A stretch of 64,000 bases of DNA from Synechococcus sp. JA-2-3B'a(2-13) (GTDB lineage Bacteria; Cyanobacteriota; Cyanobacteriia; Thermostichales; Thermostichaceae). The notes beneath the pieces are model-generated. The model worked only from the letters and a program-made list of their open reading frames with translations, was not told where the DNA came from and did no database searches. The stretch is from contig NC_007776.1 of assembly GCF_000013225.1 (NCBI RefSeq), positions 2,486,501 through 2,550,500 on the forward strand, written 5' to 3'. Every line of letters begins with the position of its first letter. The first letter of the stretch is position 1. A program made the translations under genes and the position numbers. Positions 1 to 12,939 of the stretch are shown one piece after another.

Positions 1-1264
1 CCTGGGTAGCCCAGACCACCGGCACCTGGGCTGCCTCGCAGATCCACAGCAGTTCCTCCTGGATCTCGCCCAAGCGCAGCCAACCGATCTCCACGGCCAG
101 ATCGCCGCGGGCAATCATCACCCCCAGGGGCCGGCAGCCGGCAACGGTCGCGATCAAGGCCGGCAGATTTTTTACCGCCCGCTGCGTTTCCATCTTGAGG
201 ATCAAGCCCAAATCGGGGCGAGCCTGCCGCCGCTCCAGCTCAGAAACCAGCAACTGCAAGTCCGCGGGCTGCTGGACAAAGGAATAGCCCACTAAGTCGG
301 CATGCCGCACCACAAAGTCCAGGTCTTGGCAGTCTTTGTCGGTAAGGGAACGGATCTGGAGCTGACTGTCAGGAAAATTGAGGCCTTTTTCTGCTCGCAA
401 CTTCTTGCCCTGAGGGGCAACTTTGTCCACCTCCAGCACCACGCCTGCCGGCTCGATCCTTACCACGCGGGCGCCGATTTTGCCGTCGTCGATCCAAACG
501 GTTGCCCCCACTTGCAGGTGCGCCAAAACCTCCGGCAGGCTGCAGGTCACCTGGCAGGAGATATCGGCGCTGGCCTCAGGAACCTTCGCGGTGAGCAGGA
601 TGCGATCCCCGCGGTACACCTTGGTTTTGCCGGGGGGCATGGCCACTGGGCCGGTGCGGATCTTGGGGCCGGCCAGGTCCAGCAAAATCTTGCAACGCCG
701 TTGGGTCTGGGCTTCGGCCTGGCGCAAGTGGGCCACCATTTTCTCCCACACCGAGGGCTCGTCGTGGGCGCAGTTGATGCGGGCCACGTTCATGCCCCGC
801 TCCAACAACTGCAGCAACAGCTCCGGCTGCTCGGCGGCTTCGCTGGGCAGGGTCACCATGATGCGCGCGCGGCGATGGGGAGAAGGGGGGCCAAACAGCG
901 CCTCGGCGTGCTGCTCTAGTGCCGTATCCCCGGCGTAAAACTCTTCATAGCTGGGTGCCGTATGGGTCAAACCCTGGGTGGCTGCCAAAATAGCAATCAC
1001 CGCATCCAGGCTCTCCAGAACCCGCGACTCACAGCGCCCCAGCGAGGACAGCCCCGCAGCCGCCAGCTCCAGTTGCAAGCTGCGCAGATCCTGTTGGCGC
1101 AGCGCCAGGTAGCGCGCCAGGTTGTGGATGGCCGCAGGAGGGCTCGTAAGGCAGCCCCAAGCGGCCAAGTATTTCTGGGATCCCTCTACAACCTGCTGCC
1201 GCAGCTCCAGGAGCCGCTCCAGCAAACTCCTAAGATTGCAGGAGGGGGAAGAGGAGGAAACCAT
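1..1264 (-). CDS. Pyruvate kinase-family protein, C-terminus outside window
   Basis: Expected to convert phosphoenolpyruvate and ADP to pyruvate and ATP in the cytosol. It reads on the minus strand from ATG at 1264 and stays open for 421 codons to the window edge, so the C-terminus is missing. After a helical N-terminal extension of about 130 residues come pyruvate kinase landmarks: GMNVARINCAHDE, LLDLAGPKIRTG, LTDKDCQDLDF, LILKMETQRAV (the substrate-lysine segment), MIARGDLAVEIG and VVWATQ. Standard pyruvate kinases begin almost directly with the barrel, so the extension and the weak first motif (ARIMVTLPSE) mark a divergent subfamily. Family assignment is firm. That the enzyme acts as the housekeeping pyruvate kinase is inference. 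Confidence 0.85.
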   Translation of the reverse strand, partial: MVSSSSPSCNLRSLLERLLELRQQVVEGSQKYLAAWGCLTSPPAAIHNLARYLALRQQDLRSLQLELAAAGLSSLGRCESRVLESLDAVIAILAATQGLTHTAPSYEEFYAGDTALEQHAEALFGPPSPHRRARIMVTLPSEAAEQPELLLQLLERGMNVARINCAHDEPSVWEKMVAHLRQAEAQTQRRCKILLDLAGPKIRTGPVAMPPGKTKVYRGDRILLTAKVPEASADISCQVTCSLPEVLAHLQVGATVWIDDGKIGARVVRIEPAGVVLEVDKVAPQGKKLRAEKGLNFPDSQLQIRSLTDKDCQDLDFVVRHADLVGYSFVQQPADLQLLVSELERRQARPDLGLILKMETQRAVKNLPALIATVAGCRPLGVMIARGDLAVEIGWLRLGEIQEELLWICEAAQVPVVWATQ

Positions 1265-1518
1265 GTCGAAAGTCTTCCCAAGACAAACCCGGCCCAATTC
1301 TATGCCTGAGCTTACTTGGGGTCGATCATAGGCGGGTTAGGTTGAGAAAGGAAGGCGATAGCCTTTCATTGCCCAGTGTTCCGGTCTAGAGTCGTTAACA
1401 GCCTTCGGCTGTCCTGCCTACTACTTCCTTGGGTTGCGTGAAACTTCATTCTCTCCCTCCTGCCCGTTCCCGCGAGCGGCCTGACCACAGGCTCTCCCTC
1501 GTTTGCGCGGTGGGCCTG

Positions 1519-2640
1519 ATGGATCGCTATGTCCTCTCGGAGATGCTGCTGCCGTTTCTCTTTGGGGTGGGAGCTTTCACAACCTTGGTGATGGCGGTGG
1601 GATCCCTGTTTGAGCTGGTGCGCCTGGTGGTGGAAGCGGGTCTGTCGCTTTCGGCGGCGTTACAGGTGTTTGTGTTGCGGGCGCCGGGGATCATCGTTTT
1701 GACGTTCCCGATGTCCATGTTGCTGGCGACGTTGCTGGCCTATGGGCGCTTGTCTGCCGACAACGAGATCACGGCCTTGCGCGGATGCGGGGTGAGCCTT
1801 TACCGCCTCATGGTGCCTGCCCTCGTCCTCAGCTTGCTGGTGACGACGTTAACGTTTCTGTTCAATGAGCTGGTGGTGCCGGTGAGCAATCGCCAAGCGG
1901 CCACGACTTTGAATCGAGCTTTAAATCGGGATCCGGACTTCCGGCGGGAGAATATCCTCTACCAAGAATTTGGCGAGATCCTCATGCCTGAGCCGGACGG
2001 CACCTTTTCCCGGCGACAAGGGCTAACCCGTCAGTTCTACGCCCGCAGCTTCGATGGAAAGCAAATGCGCGGCATTATCGTCCTGGATTTTTCCAACGAG
2101 GCGCTCAACCAAATTCTGCTGGCCCAGCGGGGGCGCTGGGATCCCCAAGAGAATCTTTGGGTGTTTGAGGATGGCACCAACTACATCGTTTCTCCGGATG
2201 GCACCTACAGCAACATTGCCACCTTCAGCCGGCAGGAGTTGCGTCTGCCTCGCGCGCCGCTGGAGCTGGCTCAGGAGATTCGCAGCCCTGAGGAAATGAA
2301 CATTCGGGAGCTGAAGCATTACATCGAGGTGATCGCCAGTTCTGGAGATCTGCAACGGGTGCGCCGTCTGCAGGTCAGCCTCAACCAAAAGTATGCCATT
2401 CCTTTCGCGTGTCTGGCGTTTACCCTGATTGGGGTGCCTTTGGGGCTGCGCCCGCAGCGCACCGGTTCCTCTTTGGGGTTGGGCATCAGTGTGCTGATTA
2501 TCTTTGCCTTCTATGTGCTGCTGTTCATCACCCAGGCGCTGGGACAAATTGGGACGCTGGGGCCGGCAACGGCGGCTTGGTTGCCCAACTTCATCTGTGC
2601 CGTCGTAGGACTGGGGTTGCTTCACCGAGCCAATCAATAG
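1519..2640 (+). CDS. LptF/LptG (YjgP/YjgQ) family permease
   Basis: Inner-membrane permease of the family that, in Gram-negative bacteria, works with LptB to pull lipopolysaccharide out of the inner membrane. The 373-residue protein has the family pattern: an N-terminal membrane block (YVLSEMLLPFLFGVGAFTTL and the next two hydrophobic segments), a soluble periplasmic domain from about residue 130 to 265, and C-terminal membrane helices after QKYAIPFACLAFTLIG. I start at ATG 1519 (MDRYVLSE), where relatives start; the frame is open upstream to a TTG at 1429 but that stretch lacks membrane-protein character. Cyanobacteria usually carry one such gene, so whether it acts as LptF, LptG or both cannot be told here. 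It stands alone on the plus strand. Confidence 0.85.
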   Translation: MDRYVLSEMLLPFLFGVGAFTTLVMAVGSLFELVRLVVEAGLSLSAALQVFVLRAPGIIVLTFPMSMLLATLLAYGRLSADNEITALRGCGVSLYRLMVPALVLSLLVTTLTFLFNELVVPVSNRQAATTLNRALNRDPDFRRENILYQEFGEILMPEPDGTFSRRQGLTRQFYARSFDGKQMRGIIVLDFSNEALNQILLAQRGRWDPQENLWVFEDGTNYIVSPDGTYSNIATFSRQELRLPRAPLELAQEIRSPEEMNIRELKHYIEVIASSGDLQRVRRLQVSLNQKYAIPFACLAFTLIGVPLGLRPQRTGSSLGLGISVLIIFAFYVLLFITQALGQIGTLGPATAAWLPNFICAVVGLGLLHRANQ

Positions 2641-2703
2641 CTGCTGGGCACCGTTTTTCCAGATGTAGGATCAGGGTTGCCTATGCATTCTGGAGAGCCC
2701 CCC

Positions 2704-2850
2704 ATGGAAATCCAAGCCTGGATGAATTGGATGTTCGGAGGATTGGCCCTGCTGATTTTGGGGGGAGGCATGCTGATGATGTTCACCACGGTGTTCACCA
2801 CCAAAGGGCCCCAGCCCGAAGATTCTCAGTCGGATCCCAAAAAGGGGTGA
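2704..2850 (+). CDS. Small single-span membrane protein (48 aa)
   Basis: A 48-residue reading frame directly after the permease. Residues 9-30 form one hydrophobic segment (MFGGLALLILGGGMLMMF) followed by a polar tail ending DPKKG, as in small membrane proteins. GGAGAG at 2692-2697 sits 6 bases before the ATG at 2704 and supports this start; an in-frame ATG at 2683 would add seven residues. I do not recognise the family. Support is the ribosome site, hydrophobicity and position; there is no domain evidence. Confidence 0.5.
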   Translation: MEIQAWMNWMFGGLALLILGGGMLMMFTTVFTTKGPQPEDSQSDPKKG

Positions 2851-2932
2851 GCCTAGCCCAAGGCCCGGTGACCAGTGGGATCCCTGGCAGCCGGCCCCAT
2901 GCCTTAAGAAATAGTTAAAACTAGAGGGGGCT

Positions 2933-3640
2933 CTAGTCCCGCTCCCGTTGACGTAGCCGCTGCAGAGTCGAGAGAGGTTTTGTCTCCTCTGGCGGTTTTT
3001 GCTCAGCTGCGGTGGGCAGGGCGGCTGTTTCTGTTTTCTGAGGTTCGAGCAAAAGCTTGGCGGCTTCTGACTCAACGGCTGGAGGGCGAGCCGGGTTCTC
3101 CCCTTGTTGGCCGGGCAAGGGAACAGACTCCAGAGTGGCCAGCAGAGCTTGAATATGGCTGTGGGTTTCGGGATGGTTGCTGGCGGCATGGGCCAAGAGG
3201 GTGAGCTGCTCTTTGGCAGCGACCAGGTTCCCCAGCTTGAGATCCACCAAGGCCAGTTGATAGCGAGCCTTAAAGCCACTGGGATCCACCTCCACCGAGC
3301 GCTGAAAGGCGGCGCGGGCCTCCGCCAGCTTGCCTTGACGGGCATAGATCAAGTCGAGGTTGAAAGGCACGTCGGGATCCCGTTCGCTGGGCAGCACCAA
3401 GGTTTTTTCTTCCAGTTCAATTGCGCTCCGGTAGGCGTTGATGGCCAAGGTATGGAAGCCCATCTGCAGATAGCGAGCTCCGTCTTCCTTCAGTTGGGCG
3501 ACCGTCGGCTCCCCTGTCAGTAGGGTCATGGGCGGTTGCGCGTGGGCAGGCATGGCCACCGCCAAGCTCAGCAGGCACCCCACCGTTTTCAGGCCTAAGG
3601 GTACAGCCTGACGACCAATCTGCTGCCTATTCATCACCAT
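2933..3640 (-). CDS. Exported TPR-repeat protein
   Basis: A 235-residue protein with a probable cleavable signal peptide (hydrophobic GCLLSLAVAMPAHAQ, cleavage likely after AHA near residue 34), so it should act in the periplasm or thylakoid lumen. Residues 48-150 contain two to three tetratricopeptide units (ARYLQMGFHTLAINAYRSAI, NLDLIYARQGKLAEARAAFQ, RYQLALVDLKLGNLVAAKEQ), which normally bind partner proteins. The C-terminal third is low-complexity and Pro/Glu/Lys-rich. The start at 3640 has GGAGG 9 bases upstream and overlaps the end of the HAD-fold gene by 14 bp, so the two are probably co-transcribed and translationally coupled. No specific function can be assigned. Confidence 0.75.
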   Translation of the reverse strand: MVMNRQQIGRQAVPLGLKTVGCLLSLAVAMPAHAQPPMTLLTGEPTVAQLKEDGARYLQMGFHTLAINAYRSAIELEEKTLVLPSERDPDVPFNLDLIYARQGKLAEARAAFQRSVEVDPSGFKARYQLALVDLKLGNLVAAKEQLTLLAHAASNHPETHSHIQALLATLESVPLPGQQGENPARPPAVESEAAKLLLEPQKTETAALPTAAEQKPPEETKPLSTLQRLRQRERD

Positions 3641-4511
3641 GATCTGTTTCCTCCAACCACATCAACACCACTTCATTCCACCCCTCTGGGCCGGGGAGCT
3701 GAGCCAATTGCCATTGAGGCAGGGCCTCACTCCAGAGACTATCCGCAATGGGGCTGGGAAGCACCACTTTTTGTTCCGACCATCGCAAAAAGGCCACATC
3801 TGGCGGGGAACACCCAATGCCCAAAGCTTTGATAGGGCCCAGATGCCGTTGGTAGCAATCCAGCAGCCGCTGCACCGCCTGTTCCCCCGGTAACCAATTG
3901 GGTTCTGCGGCCATCGTTGGCTGCATCCATCCGGTCAGATACCATTGCGGCAGGCTAGAGAAGTGAAGCTGACGCACCCGCAGCAGATGTTGGGTGAGGT
4001 TGGCTTCTTGCTGGGCAAAAGCTTCCCGCAGGGTTTCGGGATCCCCGGAATAGCTGAAAATCTCACTGTACTCTCGCTGCTGCGCCCGCTCTGCCTCTTC
4101 CAAAGGGATCCCAGTGGCAGCGGCCAGCTCAGAGGCAGTCCAATCCCCAAACCCGATCAAATCCAAGTGGGACTCTTGACGCACCTGTTGCAGGATGCTG
4201 CGCAGGCGAGAATAGGGCAGACCCAAAGCATACACGTAGTAGGGCGGTCGGTGTTGCCACTGCTCGTCTAGGATGCCCGCCGGGAAGTAATGCTCGGGAA
4301 CGTAAACGGCAGAGCCATCCTCACAGATGAACGGATGCTCCAGGCGCAACTGCCGCCGCACATGTTCCAGTTGAGCGCGGGTGCGCAGGCTGTAGAGCAC
4401 CAAGGGAATGGAGCGGCGCTCTAGGGCAGCCAAGGCTTGTCGGGCAGCACCATAGCTGTTGAACTCTAGATCCAGCAAGCTGCCATCCAAACTGGTAAGG
4501 ACAAGTCGCAT
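3627..4511 (-). CDS. HAD-fold protein related to mannosyl-3-phosphoglycerate phosphatase, catalytic motifs degenerate
   Basis: The 294-residue sequence follows the HAD-IIB / mannosyl-3-phosphoglycerate phosphatase layout: N-terminal LVLTSLDGSLLD, LVLYSLRTRAQ for motif II, the family-typical CEDGSAVYVP, and a C-terminal LGIGCSPPDVAFL for motif IV. HAD phosphatases need the first Asp of DxDGT as nucleophile; here it is Ser7 (SLDGS). In motif IV the usual GDSxND reads GCSPPD, losing the first Asp (Cys234), and the motif III lysine region reads LPGEQAVQRL with no Lys. By family knowledge such a protein should not be an active phosphatase. It may have a regulatory or binding role, or be decaying, though the frame is intact. 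It overlaps the TPR gene downstream. Confidence 0.75.
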   Translation of the reverse strand: MRLVLTSLDGSLLDLEFNSYGAARQALAALERRSIPLVLYSLRTRAQLEHVRRQLRLEHPFICEDGSAVYVPEHYFPAGILDEQWQHRPPYYVYALGLPYSRLRSILQQVRQESHLDLIGFGDWTASELAAATGIPLEEAERAQQREYSEIFSYSGDPETLREAFAQQEANLTQHLLRVRQLHFSSLPQWYLTGWMQPTMAAEPNWLPGEQAVQRLLDCYQRHLGPIKALGIGCSPPDVAFLRWSEQKVVLPSPIADSLWSEALPQWQLAQLPGPEGWNEVVLMWLEETDHGDE

Positions 4512-4781
4512 AGGCGCAGGAAAGGGAAAGGCGCTGGCCCCGTCAAAATTTCAAGCAGCACGACCGGCTGAAGCGTCCTACAGTACCTATGATCCAATAG
4601 CTTGACCAACCTGAGGGGGGTTAGCCCCAAATGCTCTCCCTCAAAGCATCTGGGTGAATGGGCAATCCGTGCGCCAGAAGTGGTAAAAGCTCGATTGAGC
4701 ACTACAGAATGCGTGTGTCGCCGAAGATCTTGGCTCAAAAACCAGCAGCAGAGAAGACAGACAGATTGAGTGGGTCAGTGG

Positions 4782-5471
4782 CTAGTTTTCTGTGCCAAAG
4801 GCACGATCCCCTGCATCCCCCAGCCCGGGCAAGATAAATCCTCGATCGTTCAGCCGCTCGTCAATCATGGCGCAGAAGATTTGCACCATCGGGTAGTGGG
4901 ATCCCAACCGCTGTAACCCTGGGGGCGCTGCCAATGCGCTGACAATTCTAACCAAGCTGGGATCCGCCCCCCGTTTTTTTAGCTCATCCAAAACCCAGAG
5001 CAGCGTGCCCCCGGTGGCCAACATCGGCTCGGGAATGAGAATGCGCATCTGTTCAGGGATCCGCTCTGGAAGGCGATTGAGGTAGCAACTGGCCTGCAGC
5101 GTTTCCTCATCCCGCACCATGCCAATGTGAAAGATCCGCGCCTGGGGCAAAAGGGCCTGACAGCCTTCCAGCATCGCCAAGCCAGCCCGCAATACAGGCA
5201 CAATGCCCAGCAGGGTATCCGGCGCGATGACCTCTGCGGCAACGGGTTCCAAAGGGGTTTGCACCTGAACGGTTTGGGTGGGGATCCACTCCCGCATCGC
5301 CTCATAGGTTAGCCAGCGGCCCAGCTCCGACATGGCCGTGCGAAACAGGGGCATGGGCGTCTCCGCATCCCGAGCCACGGTTAGCCAGTGCTTAATGAGC
5401 GGGTGAGGGGGGACATAGACACGAAGCTGCTGACTTGCCACGGGAGAATGCCTCAATCTGGGCGGTAGCAT
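4782..5471 (-). CDS. upp: Uracil phosphoribosyltransferase
   Basis: Salvage enzyme making UMP from uracil and PRPP. The 229-residue product has the phosphoribosyltransferase core: LFRTAMSELGRWLTYEA near the N-terminus, VPVLRAGLAMLEG, the PRPP loop region ILIPEPMLATGGTLLWVLDE, and the C-terminal uracil-binding GFILPGLGDAGDRAFGT. I chose ATG at 5471 (MLPPRLRHSP), about 15 residues before the conserved LRVYVPPHPLIKHWL; the frame stays open to 5603 but that extension is Leu/Arg-rich and unlike the family. It is divergent from the gene at 6043. pyrR elsewhere in the window (43185-43733) is another uracil-pathway gene. Confidence 0.93.
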   Translation of the reverse strand: MLPPRLRHSPVASQQLRVYVPPHPLIKHWLTVARDAETPMPLFRTAMSELGRWLTYEAMREWIPTQTVQVQTPLEPVAAEVIAPDTLLGIVPVLRAGLAMLEGCQALLPQARIFHIGMVRDEETLQASCYLNRLPERIPEQMRILIPEPMLATGGTLLWVLDELKKRGADPSLVRIVSALAAPPGLQRLGSHYPMVQIFCAMIDERLNDRGFILPGLGDAGDRAFGTEN

Positions 5472-6042
5472 AGCGGGTTGCCTTAGCAGAAAGCAAGCTC
5501 TAGAAAGCAAGCTCTCCAATTGGCCGCAACTCCATCCCGACCGGGGATAAATTGCCAACAGCTCCGGCAAATGCTCAAGGGGTGGGGCTCTTTGACCCAG
5601 CAAGATTGCGGCAGAATGAGATCTGCAGGCTACTTCGAGCGCCGGTCATGTTCGGTGGCTACAGGTTTGGGATAGACCAGGGCAAGGCTGGTTTCGGGTT
5701 TTGTTCCTCTTGCCATTTGCGAACTGAGGTGCTGGCCCCAGGGCAGCTTGGCCTCCCGCCGATGGAACCCAATGCCGGCGGATCTCGTCTGCAAGTACCG
5801 GTAGCCGGAGATACCGCTCTGTCCAAGGGTTTCTGGCTTAATGGGGTGTCGCAAGTTACAGCCTGTTCACAAATTAAGGGATACAAAACTTAAGGGATAC
5901 AAAACATCGTGTTTCTGAGGCTTGACTCCGATGAGGTTTAGAACAAGTAGGTTTACAACCGTATCCGTAGCCCCTCAATAGGCTGTACCTGCATCTTTGG
6001 CCCCCTCACACCTTGCAAGGATTAGCTTAGGGAGAATGGATT
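5472..6042. other. Intergenic region between upp and the binding-protein gene
   Basis: 571 bases separating divergent genes. No reading frame here looks coding. It contains the 16-bp tandem duplication at 5875-5906 and is more AT-rich just before 6043. I looked for a TPP riboswitch (CTGAGA and the ACCTGATC region) because the downstream gene is NMT1-like, and did not find one. Confidence 0.5.
5875..5906 (+). repeat. Perfect 16-bp tandem duplication
   Basis: TTAAGGGATACAAAAC occurs twice head to tail (5875-5890 and 5891-5906), 137 bp before the start of the substrate-binding protein gene. It could be a paired protein-binding site or a simple slippage duplication. Confidence 0.8.
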
Positions 6043-7119
6043 ATGGCTTCGTCTCAACCCTCTGACTCGAACACCAAGGCTCTGAGCCGCCGTCAGCTTC
6101 TCAAAGTGGGGGCCGCAGCCCTTGGGGGCGGTCTGTTGGCGGCAGGGGGTGCCCAAGCTCAGCGCAAACCCTCTCCCACCCTGATCGTGGCTCAGGGATC
6201 CGGCCTGGATCGCGTTTCCTATGCTACCAACTGGTATGCTCAGGCGGAACATGGGGGCTTCTATCAGGCGGTGGCGACCGGCATCTACCGCGAGCATGGC
6301 CTGGATGTGACCATCAAGATGGGTGGCCCTGGCATCAACATCACCCAAGTTTTGGCCGGTGGAGCTGCCGAGTTTGCCATGGGGGGAAGCACAGGGGTGA
6401 TCAATGCTGTGCGAGAAGGGATCCCCTTGGTGTGCGTGGCGGCCATTTTTCAAAAAGACCCGCAGATCATCATGACCCACCCCGGCACCCAGCGCTTTGA
6501 AGAGCTCAAGGGCCGGCCCATTTTCGTCTCGAAAGGGGGGCTTGCCACCTACTGGCCCTACCTAAAGGCCCGCTTTGGCTTCACCGACGATCAGGTTCGT
6601 CCCTACAACTTCAACCCCGGCCCCTTTTTGGCGGATCCCAGCTCAGCTCAGCAAGGCTATCTGACATCCGAGCCTTTTGCCATCCAACGGGAAGGGGGAT
6701 TTGAGCCGGTGGTCTTCCTCCTGGCGGATTTGGGCTACAAACCCTATGCCACCACCATCGAAACCCGTCGCCAACTGGTGGAAACCAAGCCCGACTTGGT
6801 GGAGCGATTCGTGGATGCCTCTATCAAAGGCTGGTACAGCTTCTTGGAGGATCCCCGTCCGGCCTATCGCTTGATCAAGCAGGACAACCCGGAGATGACC
6901 GATGCCCAGTTGGCCTACAGCTTCGAGAAATTGCAGGAGTACGGCATCATCTTGTCCGGCGATGCGTTGGAAAAAGGCATTGGCGCCATGACCGACAAAC
7001 GCTGGCAAGACTTCTTCGACAGCATGACGGTGGCCGGCGTATTTGAGCCAACCATCAACTACCGGGCTGCCTATACGCTGGACTTCGTCAATAAAGGCAC
7101 TGCCTACTACACTGCCTGA
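6043..7119 (+). CDS. Tat-exported NMT1/ThiY/SsuA-type ABC substrate-binding protein
   Basis: Periplasmic binding protein of the NMT1/THI5-like group, which captures thiamine precursors, sulfonates, nitrate-like anions or other small molecules for an ABC importer. The N-terminus is a twin-arginine signal: LSRRQLLKVGAAALGGGLLA, with cleavage probably after GGAQA near residue 39. The mature part begins with VSYATNWYAQAEHGGFYQA, a hallmark of this family, followed by AVATGIYREHGLDVTIKMG and AAEFAMGG. Length (358 aa) is normal. No permease lies nearby; the only matching ATPase in the window is the truncated gene at 60345-60806. The substrate cannot be told from sequence. thiOSG lies 400 bp downstream but not demonstrably in the same transcript. 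Confidence 0.88.
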   Translation: MASSQPSDSNTKALSRRQLLKVGAAALGGGLLAAGGAQAQRKPSPTLIVAQGSGLDRVSYATNWYAQAEHGGFYQAVATGIYREHGLDVTIKMGGPGINITQVLAGGAAEFAMGGSTGVINAVREGIPLVCVAAIFQKDPQIIMTHPGTQRFEELKGRPIFVSKGGLATYWPYLKARFGFTDDQVRPYNFNPGPFLADPSSAQQGYLTSEPFAIQREGGFEPVVFLLADLGYKPYATTIETRRQLVETKPDLVERFVDASIKGWYSFLEDPRPAYRLIKQDNPEMTDAQLAYSFEKLQEYGIILSGDALEKGIGAMTDKRWQDFFDSMTVAGVFEPTINYRAAYTLDFVNKGTAYYTA

Positions 7120-7159
7120 CGGACTTCCACCCTTGGCGCTTCTCAGCCCAAGGGATCCC

Positions 7160-7200
7160 CCCTCGCCCCCAGCCCCTCTTCCACCAAGGGAGAGGGGAAC
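7160..7200 (+). repeat. REP-like GC-rich hairpin unit
   Basis: CCCTC-rich arm followed by CCCCTCTTCCACCAAGGGAG and GGGG, able to fold as a hairpin (CCCCTCT against AGAGGGG). Related units occur at 7253-7298 and 44426-44462. Confidence 0.6.
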
Positions 7201-7252
7201 TATAGTCATTTCAAACTAGATTGAGACACCCCCTAAACGCTCCGCGCCACTG

Positions 7253-7298
7253 CCCTCACCCCCATTCCTTCTCTCAGGGGGAGAAGGGGGCTAGAGGG
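7253..7298 (+). repeat. REP-like GC-rich hairpin unit
   Basis: CCCTCACCCCC then TTCTCTCAGGGGGAGAA, a second copy of the 7160 unit with similar CT-rich and AG-rich arms around a short loop. Only 52 bp separate the two copies. Confidence 0.6.
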
Positions 7299-7523
7299 AA
7301 ATGTTTCATTCCGGTTTAATTGAGAATGCCAGAACACTGCGTGATCACCTCCCCCAACATCGCCAGCAACACCGGCACCCCCAGACGGATCCCGGAGACC
7401 AACAGCGAGATCAAACAAAAAGCTCCAAGTGAAAAGGCGTTCCAGCGAAGCTTGGCCCAGCACTCCATCAACAAATGCAGGCACAGGTGGGAGCAGATTC
7501 ATCGCCGAGCTGGAAAGCCTATC

Positions 7524-8804
7524 ATGGGATCCAGTATGGAATCCATCGTGCCAGTGGTGCGGGGCACTTTAACCCTTCCACCCTCCTCTTCTCTGACAAA
7601 TCCGGCAGCCAGCCTGACGGGCCCATCCGCTGCTGCGTCAGCAGTAGGGATCACTTTGCCTTGGGCAGCGCAGCGGGATCCCATCCTTGTCCTCGGGGCT
7701 GGGCTGATGGGGCGTTTGTTGGCCGCCAGCCTTGTCGAGGTTGGGCATCCCGTCCGCATTGTGGAGGCGGCTCCTGCTGCTGCTGTTGAGAGCAGCGCTG
7801 CCCATTTTGCCGCTGCTATGCTAGCTCCTTTGGCCGAGTCCGCCGTCGCCGAAGCCAGTGTGGTGGCCCAGGGGTACTATGCCCTCTCCCGCTGGCCCGC
7901 CCTTCTGGCCAGCCTGCCAGAGCCGGTTTTCTTTCAGCAGGAGGGCACTTTGATCCTCTGGCACCGCCAAGATGCCGGGGAAGCCAGACGTTTCTCGTCC
8001 CTGCTGGCCGCTGTGGTGGAGCGCCTTCCCGCTCTCCCTAAGCCCCAGCCTCTGGATGCTCAGGCTCTGGCCGAGCTGGAGCCATCGGTAGCCGGGCGAT
8101 TTGCGCAGGGCCTGTATCTTCCCCAGGAGGGCCAACTGGACAACCGCCAACTGCTGGCTGCTTTGCTGGCCAAATTGCGCCAGCACGGGGTGGAGGTGGA
8201 GTGGGGCCGCCCCTGGGATCTGGAGCAGGCGCGAGCTTGGCAGGAGCAAACCGGCGGGTGGGTTTTGGACTGCCGCGGCCTGGGATCCCGAAAAGAATGG
8301 GGCGGACAGGCACCGCTGCGGGGAGTTAGGGGCGAAGTGGTACGTCTGTATGCCCCGGAAGTATCTTTGCGGCGCCCGACCCGGCTGTTGCACCCCCGCT
8401 ACCCGATCTACATCGCTCCCAAGCCGGGGCACCTGTTTGTGGTGGGAGCTACCGAAATCGAATCTGAAGATCGCTCGCCGGTGAGTGTCCGCTCGGCTCT
8501 GGAGCTGCTCAGCGCCGCCTACGCCGTGCATCCTGCCTTTGCCGAAGCGCGTATCCTGGAGTTAGGCAGCCAATGTCGCCCCACCTTGGCAGATCATCTC
8601 CCCGCAGTGGTGGAGCGCTCCCCGCGGCTGTTGCAGATCAACGGCCTCTACCGCCATGGTTTCCTCATCTCCCCCGCCATTCACGATGCCGTTTTGGAGT
8701 ACCTCCACCACGGCAGTTGCCGCTTGGCGCAGCAGCTTGGGATCCCCTTTCAGGTGCAGGCTGCCCCTCTTGCCGGTGAGTCCCTGTCGCCATGCGTGTC
8801 TTGA
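7524..8804 (+). CDS. thiO: Glycine oxidase ThiO (FAD-dependent)
   Basis: Flavoenzyme that oxidises glycine to the imine used with ThiS thiocarboxylate and ThiG to make the thiamine thiazole ring. The FAD-binding Rossmann motif is PILVLGAGLMGRLLA near residue 55, followed by the DAO fold with QEGTLILW, YLPQEGQLDNRQLLAAL and the C-terminal GLYRHGFLISPAIHDAVLEY. I place the start at ATG 7524 (MGSSMES), with GGAAAG 7 bases upstream; ATG 7536 is an alternative. About 50 residues before the Rossmann motif are low-complexity Ser/Ala/Thr and unlike the family, so the true start could be later. The 3' end overlaps thiS by 13 bp, showing an operon. Confidence 0.88.
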   Translation: MGSSMESIVPVVRGTLTLPPSSSLTNPAASLTGPSAAASAVGITLPWAAQRDPILVLGAGLMGRLLAASLVEVGHPVRIVEAAPAAAVESSAAHFAAAMLAPLAESAVAEASVVAQGYYALSRWPALLASLPEPVFFQQEGTLILWHRQDAGEARRFSSLLAAVVERLPALPKPQPLDAQALAELEPSVAGRFAQGLYLPQEGQLDNRQLLAALLAKLRQHGVEVEWGRPWDLEQARAWQEQTGGWVLDCRGLGSRKEWGGQAPLRGVRGEVVRLYAPEVSLRRPTRLLHPRYPIYIAPKPGHLFVVGATEIESEDRSPVSVRSALELLSAAYAVHPAFAEARILELGSQCRPTLADHLPAVVERSPRLLQINGLYRHGFLISPAIHDAVLEYLHHGSCRLAQQLGIPFQVQAAPLAGESLSPCVS

Positions 8805-8989
8805 TCAACCAAAAGCCTTACGATTTGCCGGAAGGCACCACTTTGGCCGAGGCAGTGGCTCAGGTGGGGGCCAGCGGCCCTTTTGCGGTAGCGGTTAATC
8901 TGAAGTTTGTGCCGCGTGCCCAATACGAGCAAACCCGTCTGCAAGAAGGCGACCAGGTGGAGATCGTCACTCCGGTTGCCGGCGGCTAG
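8792..8989 (+). CDS. thiS: Sulfur carrier protein ThiS
   Basis: 65-residue ubiquitin-like sulfur carrier. Its C-terminal Gly-Gly (TPVAGG) is adenylated and converted to a thiocarboxylate that donates sulfur to the thiazole ring. The beta-grasp pattern is visible: MRVLINQKPYDLPEGTTLAE, AVAVNLKFVPR, LQEGDQVEIVTPVAGG. It starts inside the last codons of thiO and ends 32 bp before thiG, so the three genes form one transcription unit with probable translational coupling. Confidence 0.95.
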   Translation: MRVLINQKPYDLPEGTTLAEAVAQVGASGPFAVAVNLKFVPRAQYEQTRLQEGDQVEIVTPVAGG

Positions 8990-9021
8990 CGCTCAAGTCC
9001 GCTTTTCTATCTGCCTCAGCC

Positions 9022-9849
9022 ATGTCCACCCTTCTCCATTGCTCTCCCTCAACTCTGGCCGATGAGGATCCTTTGGTTCTCTACGGCCAACCGTTACCCA
9101 GCCGTCTGATGTTGGGTACGGCTCGCTACCCTTCGCCGGCCATTTTGGAGCAGGCGGTGGCGCGCGCGCAGCCCTGTTTGTTGACGGTTTCTCTGCGGCG
9201 GCAAGGGGCACTGGGGCCAGAAACTTCCCAGAGGTTCTGGGCTCTGTTGCAGAAGATGGGGATCCCAGTTCTGCCCAACACCGCCGGCTGCCACAGCGTG
9301 CAGGAGGTGATCACAACGGCGGAGATGGCGCGGGAGGTGTTCGGCACCGACTGGATCAAGCTGGAGTTGATTGGGGATGACTACACGCTGCAGCCGGATC
9401 CCGTGCAACTGCCCACTGCTGCTGCTGAGCTGGTCCGGCGCGGCTTTAAGGTGCTGCCCTATAGCACCGACGACCTGGTGCTCTGCCAGCGGCTTTTGGA
9501 TGCTGGCTGTGAGGTGGTGATGCCCTGGGCGGCCCCCATCGGCACCGGCAAAGGCCCTCTCAACCCCTACAACTTGCGCCTGCTGCGGGAGCGGATCGAG
9601 GCGCCGCTGATCGTGGATGCCGGCTTGGGCCTGCCCTCCCATGCCTGCCAGGTGATGGAGTGGGGCTTCGACGGGGTGCTGCTAAACACGGCGGTGGCCT
9701 TGGCCCGGGATCCGGTGGCCATGGCCGAGGCCTTTGCAGAAGCGGTGCGCTCAGGCCGCCGAGCCTACCTGGCCGGGGCCATGATCCCTCAGGAAACAGC
9801 TCAGCCCAGTACGCCTGTCCTCGGCACTCCCTTTTGGCACCAGGGCTGA
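9022..9849 (+). CDS. thiG: Thiazole synthase ThiG
   Basis: Forms the thiazole phosphate of thiamine from deoxyxylulose phosphate, ThiS thiocarboxylate and the ThiO product. The 275-residue TIM-barrel protein has [20 protein letters not shown] at the N-terminus, [19 protein letters not shown], the Schiff-base lysine in [11 protein letters not shown] (Lys113), [11 protein letters not shown] and [20 protein letters not shown] for phosphate binding. Last gene of thiO-thiS-thiG. Some cyanobacteria carry thiO and thiG fused; here they are separate with thiS between. tenA at 55902-56561 is another thiamine gene. Confidence 0.96.
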
Positions 9850-9871
9850 CTGCCGCTCTCAGGGGTGCAGC

Positions 9872-10504
9872 TCAGGCGGCAGGCTTTCGCGCCTGGATAA
9901 CCTGCAGAGCTCCCCCAGCGTGGAGGGTCTGCCGGATGGATTGCCACCCCTGCTGCTGCAAATGCTCGGGCAAGTCCAGCTTGAGTAGCTCCCAGGCGGT
10001 CTCGGTTTCAAACAGGGCCAAAAAGAGGGCCAGCCCAGGCCAGATCAAGGGTTGTCGAGGCGCGTGCAGATCCAGAATCAAGAGTCCTCCCCCCGGCTTG
10101 AGCACCCGCCACACTTCCCGCAGCACCTGCTCCAAATCTGCGAAGGACAATTCGTGCAGGGCTAAGCTGGTATGCACCCAATCAAAGCTGGCATTGGGAA
10201 AGGGCATATCCTGGGCAAAGGCTTCCACAAATTCCACCTTGGGGAGGCGTTTGCGGGCCGCTGCCAGGGCTCTTGGTGAAGCATCCAACCCAATAACCTG
10301 CTGGCTCAGCTCCGCCAACAGTGGGGTCACTTCAGCCGGGCCACAGCAGAGATCCAACACCCGCTCCTGGGGATGAATCTGGATCCCTTGCATGGGCAAT
10401 CTCCGCAACCGCTCGTATCCCCCCACCGCCAGAGCAGCCCCGCGGCTGATGCTGCGGTAAAGCCAGGGAAAGCGGTAGCTCCAGTCGCGCAGGAAGGTGG
10501 CCAC
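9872..10504 (-). CDS. Class I SAM-dependent methyltransferase (UbiE-like)
   Basis: 210-residue methyltransferase with the SAM-binding motif I VLDLCCGPAEVTPLLA near residue 50, motif II VIGLDASPRALAAARKRL, an acidic AFAQDMPFPNASFDWVHTSL and motif III VWRVLKPGGGLLILDL. Overall resemblance is to quinone or small-molecule methyltransferases of the UbiE/COQ5 type. The substrate is not identifiable. It converges on thiG with 22 bp between stop codons and stands alone on the minus strand. Confidence 0.8.
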   Translation of the reverse strand: MATFLRDWSYRFPWLYRSISRGAALAVGGYERLRRLPMQGIQIHPQERVLDLCCGPAEVTPLLAELSQQVIGLDASPRALAAARKRLPKVEFVEAFAQDMPFPNASFDWVHTSLALHELSFADLEQVLREVWRVLKPGGGLLILDLHAPRQPLIWPGLALFLALFETETAWELLKLDLPEHLQQQGWQSIRQTLHAGGALQVIQARKPAA

Positions 10505-10680
10505 AGACAGGGATCCCTCAGAGTCTTTTTCAGCCTACCTGACCTACATCCATTGCAAACTGGTTTGAGACATATGTTTTTCTGGATTTTCTCGGGGTTG
10601 GCTTGGAACTCTCCTCTGCCGGCAGTCGTCTAAGAAGACGAGGCGTTTTAGGCTTTTTTCTGTCTACCCACTGCTGCTCT

Positions 10681-11412
10681 ATGACTCAGTTTGAGCTGCC
10701 TCCCTCCCCTTCCGAGAAACCTGGCCGGCACAGCTTGGTTTGGTTGGTGGCTGCTGCAGGTCTGACGGTCTTGCTCTGGCAGCTCCCCTGGGGCAACTAT
10801 ATCCTCTACCCCTTTACGATTCTGGCCACCTGGTTTCATGAGATGGGCCACGGCTTGACGGCAGTGCTGTTGGGTGGGGAGTTTCATCGTCTGGAGATCT
10901 ATCCCGACGGCTCGGGGCTGGCCATTCACAGTGGCGAGCTGTTTTTGGGACGGGTGGGGCAAGCTTTGGTGGCCGCTGCTGGGCCGATGGGGCCGCCGCT
11001 GGCTGGGGCCCTGTTCATCCTTGCCTCCCGCCGCCACAGCACAACTCGGTTGGGGCTGGTACTTCTGGGATCCCTGCTGTTGCTATCGACGCTGCTCTGG
11101 GTTCGCTCTCCCTTTGGCCTCCTGTTCCTCTTGGGTATGGGTTTGGGGATCCTGGCGGTAGCTCGCTGGGCCTCCCCCTGGCTGCGGGGCTTCGCTGCAC
11201 AATTTTTGGGGGTGCAGGCCTGTGTGAGCACCTACCACCAGCTTGACTACTTATTTACGGCCTCTGCCGTGATCAATGGTCAGGTGATCCACTCCGATTC
11301 CAGCCAGATTGCCCAAAACTTGTTCTTGCCCTACTGGTTTTGGGGAGGGGTGATGGCGGTCTCTTCTTTGGTGCTGCTGATAACCAGCTTGCAGCTGACG
11401 TTCCGGGACTAG
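10681..11412 (+). CDS. M50B-like membrane metalloprotease
   Basis: 243-residue polytopic membrane protein carrying the zinc-protease motif HEMGH in ATWFHEMGHGLTAVLLGGEF near residue 60, inside a hydrophobic segment as in M50 site-2 proteases. A second conserved block GQALVAAAGPMGPPLAGALF supplies a membrane helix. At least six hydrophobic segments are visible. Relatives in cyanobacteria are annotated as M50 family peptidases of unknown substrate. I start at ATG 10681 (MTQFELPPSP) because the upstream in-frame extension is basic and low quality. Active-site His, Glu and His are present, so proteolysis within or near the membrane is plausible but unproved. Confidence 0.75.
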   Translation: MTQFELPPSPSEKPGRHSLVWLVAAAGLTVLLWQLPWGNYILYPFTILATWFHEMGHGLTAVLLGGEFHRLEIYPDGSGLAIHSGELFLGRVGQALVAAAGPMGPPLAGALFILASRRHSTTRLGLVLLGSLLLLSTLLWVRSPFGLLFLLGMGLGILAVARWASPWLRGFAAQFLGVQACVSTYHQLDYLFTASAVINGQVIHSDSSQIAQNLFLPYWFWGGVMAVSSLVLLITSLQLTFRD

Positions 11413-11543
11413 CCGGCAGGGGGCAAAGCCGCAATTTTGGCAGTGGTTCGTGTTATGTAAAAATCCGTCCTCTATCCCTGCCAAGTCGAGAAAACCGCCG
11501 CTACAGTAATGGGCAAGAGGAGTGAGGAGTTGAGGAGTGGAGC

Positions 11544-11684
11544 ATGTGGCGGGATGTTATTGGGCTGGCCCTGGCGGCGACCCTACTGTTGATCAGCAAA
11601 ACCGCCGCAGATACGCTTGGCCAAAGCCAGGTGCAGACTTTCACCGAACCTGAGCCAACGCCCCATTCTTTTCCGGTGGAGTGA
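11544..11684 (+). CDS. Small exported or membrane-anchored peptide (46 aa)
   Basis: 46-residue frame with a GAGTGGAG ribosome-site region just before ATG 11544. Residues 4-20 are hydrophobic (DVIGLALAATLLLISKTAA), like a signal sequence or anchor, followed by a short polar tail ending SFPVE. Not recognised. It lies alone between the M50 gene and sqdX, so support is modest. Confidence 0.4.
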   Translation: MWRDVIGLALAATLLLISKTAADTLGQSQVQTFTEPEPTPHSFPVE

Positions 11685-11783
11685 GGTACTCAAGTCTGCT
11701 GACGGAAGTCGTAGCGGCGTTGTCGTTTTGTGCAACACTCATTCTAGAGTCTTTAAGGGCTCCGTCCGAGTAGCGCGGTCGCA

Positions 11784-11804
11784 GCAGCGTTGCGGAGCAA
11801 TAAC
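11784..11804 (+). repeat. Short dispersed repeat, family A
   Basis: GCAGCGTTGCGGAGCAATAA, a copy of the CGCGTNAGCGNTGCGNAGC family, 20 bp before the start codon of sqdX. Confidence 0.7.
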
Positions 11805-11823
11805 AGTAGGCTTGGGATCCCTG

Positions 11824-12939
11824 ATGCGCATAGCCCTGTTTACGGAGACGTTTCTGCCCAAGGTGGATGGCATCGTTACCCGCCTCTGCCACACGGTGCG
11901 TCACCTAACCGCTCGAGGCAACTCGGTGCTCATCGTCGCGCCCCGGGGAGCCCCCCGGCGGTTTGCACGGGCACGGGTCTACGGGATCCCGGGGATGCCG
12001 CTGCCTCTGTATCCAGAGTTGAAGCTGGCTGCCCCCGGCCCGGCCATCGGCAAGTTGCTCAGCCGTTTCCGACCGGATGTGATCCACGTGGTGAACCCGG
12101 CAGTTTTGGGATTGGGGGGCCTCTACTACAGCCAGACGATGGGGATCCCGCTGGTGGCCTCCTACCATACCCATCTGCCGAAGTATCTGCAGCATTATGG
12201 GCTGGGCTTTCTGGAGGGGGTTTTGTGGAATCTCCTGAAGCTGGGGCACAATTTGGCGCGGGTCAATCTTTGCACCTCGACGGCCATGATGCAGGAGCTG
12301 AGCGCCCACGGCATTGAGCGGGTGCAGCTGTGGCAGCGAGGAGTGGATACGGAGTTGTTTCATCCCCAGGCGGCCAGTTCAGAAATGCGGGCTCGGCTCA
12401 CCGCAGGGCAACCGGAACGGCCTCTTTTGCTCTATGTGGGGCGGCTTTCGGCTGAGAAGGAAGTAGGGCGGATCCGGGTGTTGCTAGAGCGGATCCCACA
12501 GGCGCGCCTAGCTATTGTGGGGGATGGGCCAGAGCGGGGATCCCTGGAGCAACATTTTGCCGGCCACGATGTGGTGTTTACGGGCTACCTACAGGGAGAG
12601 TCTCTGGCAGCGGCCTTTGCTTCGGCGGATTTGTTCGTGTTCCCCTCCCGCACCGAGACCTTGGGGCTGGTTCTGTTGGAAGCCATGGCTGCCGGTTGTC
12701 CGGTGATCGCCCCCCGCTGCGGCGGCATTACCGATGTGGTGGACAGTGGGCGCAATGGCTTTCTGTTCGATCCCAATTCGGATAGCGACTTTGTCCAGGT
12801 TACCCAGCAACTCCTGAGCAGCGTCGGGCAGCGACAGCTCTTCCGACAGCAAGCCCGCCAAGAGGCAGAACGCTGGAGCTGGTCGGCAGCCACCCAACAG
12901 TTGGAAGGCTACTACCGGGCTGTTATTGCCGCCGATTAG
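11824..12939 (+). CDS. sqdX: Sulfoquinovosyltransferase SqdX (GT4)
   Basis: Transfers sulfoquinovose from UDP-sulfoquinovose to diacylglycerol, the last step of sulfolipid synthesis for thylakoid membranes. The 371-residue GT4/GT-B protein has RIALFTETFLPKVDGIVTRL at the N-terminus, DVIHVVNPAVLGLGGL, ASYHTHLPKYLQHYGL, LWQRGVDTELFHP, LLYVGRLSAEKEVGRI and the nucleotide-sugar motif PSRTETLGLVLLEAMAAGCP. All are typical of cyanobacterial and plant SQD2/SqdX. I use ATG 11824 because the open frame upstream to 11617 crosses a dispersed repeat and does not look coding. No sqdB is in the window. Confidence 0.92.
   Translation: MRIALFTETFLPKVDGIVTRLCHTVRHLTARGNSVLIVAPRGAPRRFARARVYGIPGMPLPLYPELKLAAPGPAIGKLLSRFRPDVIHVVNPAVLGLGGLYYSQTMGIPLVASYHTHLPKYLQHYGLGFLEGVLWNLLKLGHNLARVNLCTSTAMMQELSAHGIERVQLWQRGVDTELFHPQAASSEMRARLTAGQPERPLLLYVGRLSAEKEVGRIRVLLERIPQARLAIVGDGPERGSLEQHFAGHDVVFTGYLQGESLAAAFASADLFVFPSRTETLGLVLLEAMAAGCPVIAPRCGGITDVVDSGRNGFLFDPNSDSDFVQVTQQLLSSVGQRQLFRQQARQEAERWSWSAATQQLEGYYRAVIAAD

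Follow-up and report, generated by a model that had tools for sequence, protein, structure and literature searches.

The protein of 294 amino acids encoded on the minus strand of a 64,000-nucleotide stretch of DNA from the hot-spring cyanobacterium Synechococcus sp. JA-2-3B'a(2-13) (the whole of which is hereafter called the window) is probably an orphaned glucosyl-3-phosphoglycerate phosphatase (GpgP; MPGP family) that has been turned into a conserved pseudoenzyme and now acts by binding or scaffolding. The synthase gene gpgS is missing from its lineage and the catalytic, phosphate-binding, and most of the conserved pocket residues are replaced, while the full HAD core and cap are still held by purifying selection. 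The features concerned are collected in Table 1.

Table 1. Features of the window in and around the pseudo-phosphatase gene; residue numbers refer to its 294-residue product.
Feature	Position	Strand	Description
Predicted pseudo-phosphatase	3627..4511	-	MPGP/GpgP (HAD-IIB) family, 294 aa; from homology, motifs, AF2, and Foldseek
Motif I	4479..4493	-	SLDGS at residues 7-11; Ser in place of the nucleophile Asp, D9 (second Asp) retained
Motif II region	4377..4391	-	SLRTR, residues 41-45; SKT of intact enzymes replaced by LRT, Lys43 by Arg
C2B-type cap region	4041..4271	-	Residues 81-157 (limits approximate); conserved GFGDWT and REYSEIF
Former motif III	3876..3890	-	Residues 208-212; Lys of the K-G-x-A-V motif missing
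Motif IV	3798..3815	-	GCSPPD, residues 233-238, replacing G(D/N)SPND; final Asp retained
GGAGG (Shine-Dalgarno-like)	3650..3654	-	Lies within the phosphatase frame, 9 nt upstream of the TPR ATG
TPR-repeat protein	2933..3640	-	235 aa; N-terminal Sec-type signal peptide (by inspection)
Uracil phosphoribosyltransferase (upp)	4782..5603	-	

Fold and catalytic residues

An earlier note on this DNA, made from the letters alone, had described the frame as intact and its layout as that of mannosyl-3-phosphoglycerate phosphatase, and both descriptions were borne out. The frame opens with ATG and contains no internal stop. General MPGP-family models of NCBIfam matched the product with E-values of 1e-28 to 1e-41, mainly across residues 1-170; TIGR01486 (HAD-IIB) gave E 5.8e-41 and 140.5 bits, under its curated 164.75, and NF009342 (PRK12702.1) gave 663.6 bits, above its cut-off of 596. 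Thermus MpgP (PDB 3ztw) was matched by phmmer at E 2.4e-18, the nearest solved structures being Thermus MpgP, Pyrococcus MpgP, and E. coli YedP. When the AlphaFold2 model (mean pLDDT 92.2, pTM 0.90) was used in Foldseek, the best matches were again Thermus and Pyrococcus MpgP (E 1.8e-21, TM 0.72/0.83), and the fold is, as modelled, an MPGP-type HAD core with a cap. The window protein is about 22-26% identical, across the entire fold, to the solved enzymes (Thermus thermophilus HB27, PDB 3ZTW/3ZUP; Pyrococcus horikoshii, 2ZOS/1WZC), with which it shares this core and cap as well as the cap motifs G-(F/Y)-G-D and R-E-Y. Those enzymes have DxDGT and a complete active site, whereas in the window protein the nucleophile, the motif II Lys, the motif III Lys, and motif IV have all been replaced.

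The search of Pfam returned sub-threshold HAD matches only (Hydrolase_3 and S6PP). Such matches are in keeping with a protein that serves some other sugar-phosphate pathway as an inactive subunit, the part proposed for the SPP-like domain of sucrose-phosphate synthase in relation to SPP. A precedent is found in that C-terminal domain, a phosphatase-like domain proposed as a docking site that binds the true phosphatase (PMC4493782); it is likewise a phosphatase-like HAD, but is fused and belongs to the sucrose pathway, whereas the window protein stands alone. A strong sucrose-phosphatase match was present in only two of the eight genomes sampled from the window's taxonomic family, as against a pseudoenzyme in all eight, so that sucrose synthesis is not an obligate partner. 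A partner from the sucrose pathway is hence disfavoured, and an inactive subunit of this kind is considered unlikely.

Across 31 intact cyanobacterial relatives, the nucleophile Asp, the second Asp, the motif I Thr, the motif II SKT, Glu47, the EN of the ENG motif, Arg189, the motif III Lys, and the motif IV ND are invariant. The window protein departs from residues identical in all 31 aligned relatives at D7, Y18, S42, K43, E47, N65, R189, K199, and N237, and the alteration of nine invariant positions while the fold and the reading frame are preserved goes beyond chance. In the eight genomes of the family, Lys43 has become Arg, Trp, or Ser, Asn65 has become Asp, Ala, or Gly, and Asn237 has become Pro, Ala, or Gln; Lys199 is gone from all eight and Arg189 from seven, according to the alignment used. 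Retained throughout are D9 (as Asp or Glu), E64, G66, R146, D238, G277, and W278. The substitutions reported in the earlier note, namely SLDGS for DxDGT, GCSPPD for GDSxND, and the missing motif III Lys, were all recovered, the last of these with residues 207-212 reading LPGEQA. Its broader claim that both the nucleophile and the metal ligands are gone stands for the nucleophile and only in part for the ligands, of which D9 and D238 remain.

Many otherwise intact cyanobacterial GpgPs (L063, L064, L067-L069, L087-L090, and L098-L100) carry GNSPND rather than GDSPND at motif IV. The first Asp of this motif seems dispensable in that subfamily; its loss alone is therefore not diagnostic, and its value as proof of inactivity is weakened.

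HAD chemistry runs through an aspartyl-phosphate intermediate. From this established chemistry and the loss of the catalytic set, we infer that the window protein would be devoid of phosphatase activity, the retention of D9 and D238 leaving a small probability of a residual or different reaction. It could be asked whether the protein is still an enzyme, its pocket remodelled for another substrate or reaction by way of Ser7 or the D9/D238 pair. The HAD fold is known in general for varied chemistry, the fold here is intact, and the D9 and D238 positions are kept in all eight family members, but no alternative set of residues has become fixed. The position of the nucleophile, which is Asp in all 31 intact relatives, is occupied by Ser in seven of the family genomes and by Arg in the eighth, and the motif II Lys has been replaced in the three different ways given above. 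Such variety argues against a switched nucleophile, Ser7 is an unlikely substitute in view of the Arg found in one genome, and a remodelled enzyme is accordingly regarded as quite improbable.

Membership of the MPGP/GpgP family is a matter of how it is defined. The window protein belongs there by the homology of its sequence and fold to MpgP. It does not belong there by the DxDGT nucleophile, lost from the window protein and in all eight family genomes, nor by S-K-T, the motif III Lys, and G(D/N)SxND, for which it has LRT, no Lys, and GCSPPD. Nor does it belong by genomic company, as neither gpgS (sought with two queries of different subtype), nor MPG synthase (PF09488), nor an intact GpgP was found in any of the eight. 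Given that the homology is that of MPGP/GpgP and yet the catalytic features fail the family definition, the name "phosphatase" should go.

Selection on the gene and its neighbours

A single nucleophile-less copy is present in each of the eight sampled genomes of the family. The comparison of orthologues which the earlier note had proposed as its check thus came out on the side of a conserved pseudoenzyme, with the degenerate motifs common to all eight genomes and under strong purifying selection. The opposite outcome, intact orthologues beside a relaxed copy, did not occur, for the intact relatives lie outside the family and the copy is not relaxed. Pairwise dN/dS ranged from 0.055 to 0.113 inside the genus and from 0.09 to 0.26 between genera, with dS partly saturated. 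The catalytic residues are gone from the orthologues of all eight genomes, an intermediate condition being met with in the order outgroup G392, and the same changes recur in independent genomes, which excludes sequencing error.

The earlier note had claimed that a TPR gene overlaps the phosphatase frame, and the overlap amounts to 14 nt in the window (3627-3640); in all eight family genomes the stop of the phosphatase gene overlaps the start of the TPR gene, by 8-17 nt according to which start codon is taken. Together with the GGAGG placed shortly before the TPR start, this arrangement suggests that the two genes are translationally coupled, and co-translation with the TPR protein would form part of the proposed mechanism. 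Another reading takes the gene for a slowly decaying relic of the vanished pathway, maintained solely for the start and the ribosome-binding site of the TPR gene that lie in its 3' end. Such a reading would agree with this overlap, with the GGAGG inside the frame, and with the absence of gpgS from the same genomes, but is the least probable of the readings weighed, as all eight frames are free of internal stops, dN is low against dS inside the genus (0.02-0.11 versus 0.5-1.2) alike in the N-terminal core, the cap, and the C-terminal core, and a cis-regulatory need would constrain the last codons only.

The TPR proteins of all eight family genomes start with a Sec-type signal peptide, as judged by inspection, and are probably exported. 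The two products would then probably reside in different compartments and contact between them is not required, so that a direct complex of the pseudo-phosphatase with the mature TPR protein is uncertain. Within the order, the TPR protein of the window was found nowhere outside the window's family, and in every case its gene overlaps that of the pseudo-phosphatase. No homologue of this protein was found in G392; either the pairing dates from the loss of the nucleophile or later, or G392 has lost it. On the other side, upp lies upstream on the same strand in seven of the eight genomes, with a gap of about 120-405 nt, and this variable gap makes co-transcription with the pseudo-phosphatase uncertain. 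A search of window positions 1-12000 against Rfam returned no RNA element and a scan of positions 2600-5000 for sigma-70 promoters found none. The function of the protein is revealed by neither of its neighbours.

Ancestry and a second inactive clade

A class-wide profile search of 390 genomes returned one further close relative, L083 (genome G403), which is fully intact and lies directly downstream of gpgS. At 45% identity, L083 is the nearest intact relative of the window protein and sister to the whole pseudoenzyme clade. A ninth member of that clade, L041 of G392 (51% identical), retains DLDGS, but its motif II Lys is gone and little is left of motif IV (GSYPHD); the same genome encodes a second, intact GpgP (L042), which adjoins a GpgS. 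Both L083 and L042 possess the intact DLDGT, SKT, Lys, and GDSPND beside a gpgS, whereas the window genome is without gpgS and without an intact GpgP. In the tree, L083 is sister to L041 plus the family (support 100/97) and L041 is sister to the family (100/99), with L042 on another branch. Decay of the active site thus reads as stepwise, from the intact L083 through L041, with its DxD and degraded motifs II and IV, to the family without a nucleophile. As the nearest intact relative adjoins gpgS, the ancestor is read as a glucosylglycerate-pathway phosphatase that was paired with gpgS, and loss of the partner enzyme is the probable trigger of the catalytic decay.

The gpgS of G392 (L101, which accompanies L042) is of another subtype, sharing about 38% identity with the one in G403, and suggests that one gpgS-gpgP cassette was replaced by another. 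Two gpgS-like matches per genome were recorded in both G463 and G403; the matches at G463:C22:372286-373491 and G403:C1:23834-24991 hold one in-frame stop each (TGA or TAA), possibly through decay or assembly error.

Six genomes of the genus g163, which belongs to another family, carry a GpgP relative (L102-L107) of similar fate. In these proteins the nucleophile is replaced or its DxDGT context broken, SKT is replaced, EN has become ES or EG, the motif III Lys is gone, and motif IV is erased, with the cap nearly unchanged. Identity within the clade amounts to 75% in the cap and to 52% and 33% in the two halves of the core, and the protein is modelled with a confident fold (pLDDT 93.7). The g163 clade groups in the tree with intact sequences from its own family and a single origin of both inactive groups was rejected (AU p 6.7e-6); the catalytic core, on this phylogenetic evidence, is taken to have been lost independently in g163 and in the window's family. 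No gpgS was found in the six g163 genomes, while the gene is present in all 26 genomes checked that hold an intact GpgP, G392 included. The 14 genomes amount to two evolutionary events rather than to as many independent points, and both events run in the same direction.

The two clades are alike in their ancestor family, the loss of the core, and the lack of gpgS in the genome. They differ in their origin, in the conservation of the cap far above the core in g163, and in their neighbours, the g163 gene standing in a conserved context between phosphoesterase-like and nadA-like genes (both named by eye) and that of the window between upp and the TPR gene. Conservation specific to the cap holds in the g163 clade and fails as a general explanation, for the cap is not above the core in the window's lineage, where identity to L083 is 54% in the N-terminal core, 43% in the cap, and 46% in the C-terminal core.

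Proposed function and annotation

The orphaned phosphatase, presumably unable to hydrolyse phosphomonoesters, would work by binding, most likely as a cytoplasmic regulatory or scaffolding protein, with a putative partner or ligand docking on the retained faces of the cap and core. A binding or scaffolding function is held with moderate confidence, and the earlier suggestion of a binding or regulatory protein is plausible. With most of the old ligand pocket gone, it is doubtful that the protein still binds its former substrate. The same pattern in a second, independent lineage suggests reuse for a non-catalytic job. More tentatively, cyanobacterial GpgP may have a second non-catalytic role, such as the binding of a partner or metabolite, independent of glucosylglycerate synthesis; it would have kept the gene after the loss of gpgS in two lineages, where the catalytic site decayed and what survived was the fold or, in one of them, chiefly the cap.

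Pseudoenzymes are well described in eukaryotes, and to our knowledge there are few stand-alone bacterial ones with a traceable history. In the present case the history can be followed from the intact ancestor type through an intermediate to the final state, with an independent replicate beside it, and the loss of gpgS offers a probable trigger. Such a record opens to test the question of whether osmolyte phosphatases moonlight. Neither an inactive MPGP that stands alone nor the window pseudoenzyme was the subject of any paper found among the open-access papers searched; pseudophosphatases of other folds include PHLPP2 (PMC12002173) and PTPRU (PMC7320164).

The NCBIfam model NF009342, named "mannosyl-3-phosphoglycerate phosphatase", describes exactly the window's group, and its name claims an activity for which the sequences offer no support. 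By naming a nucleophile-less group as an active phosphatase at equivalog level, this model is a probable source of misannotation. One study counted a strain as glucosylglycerate-capable once BLAST had detected one or more genes of the pathway (PMC11505929), a rule which could count these pseudoenzymes as evidence of the pathway in early-branching cyanobacteria.
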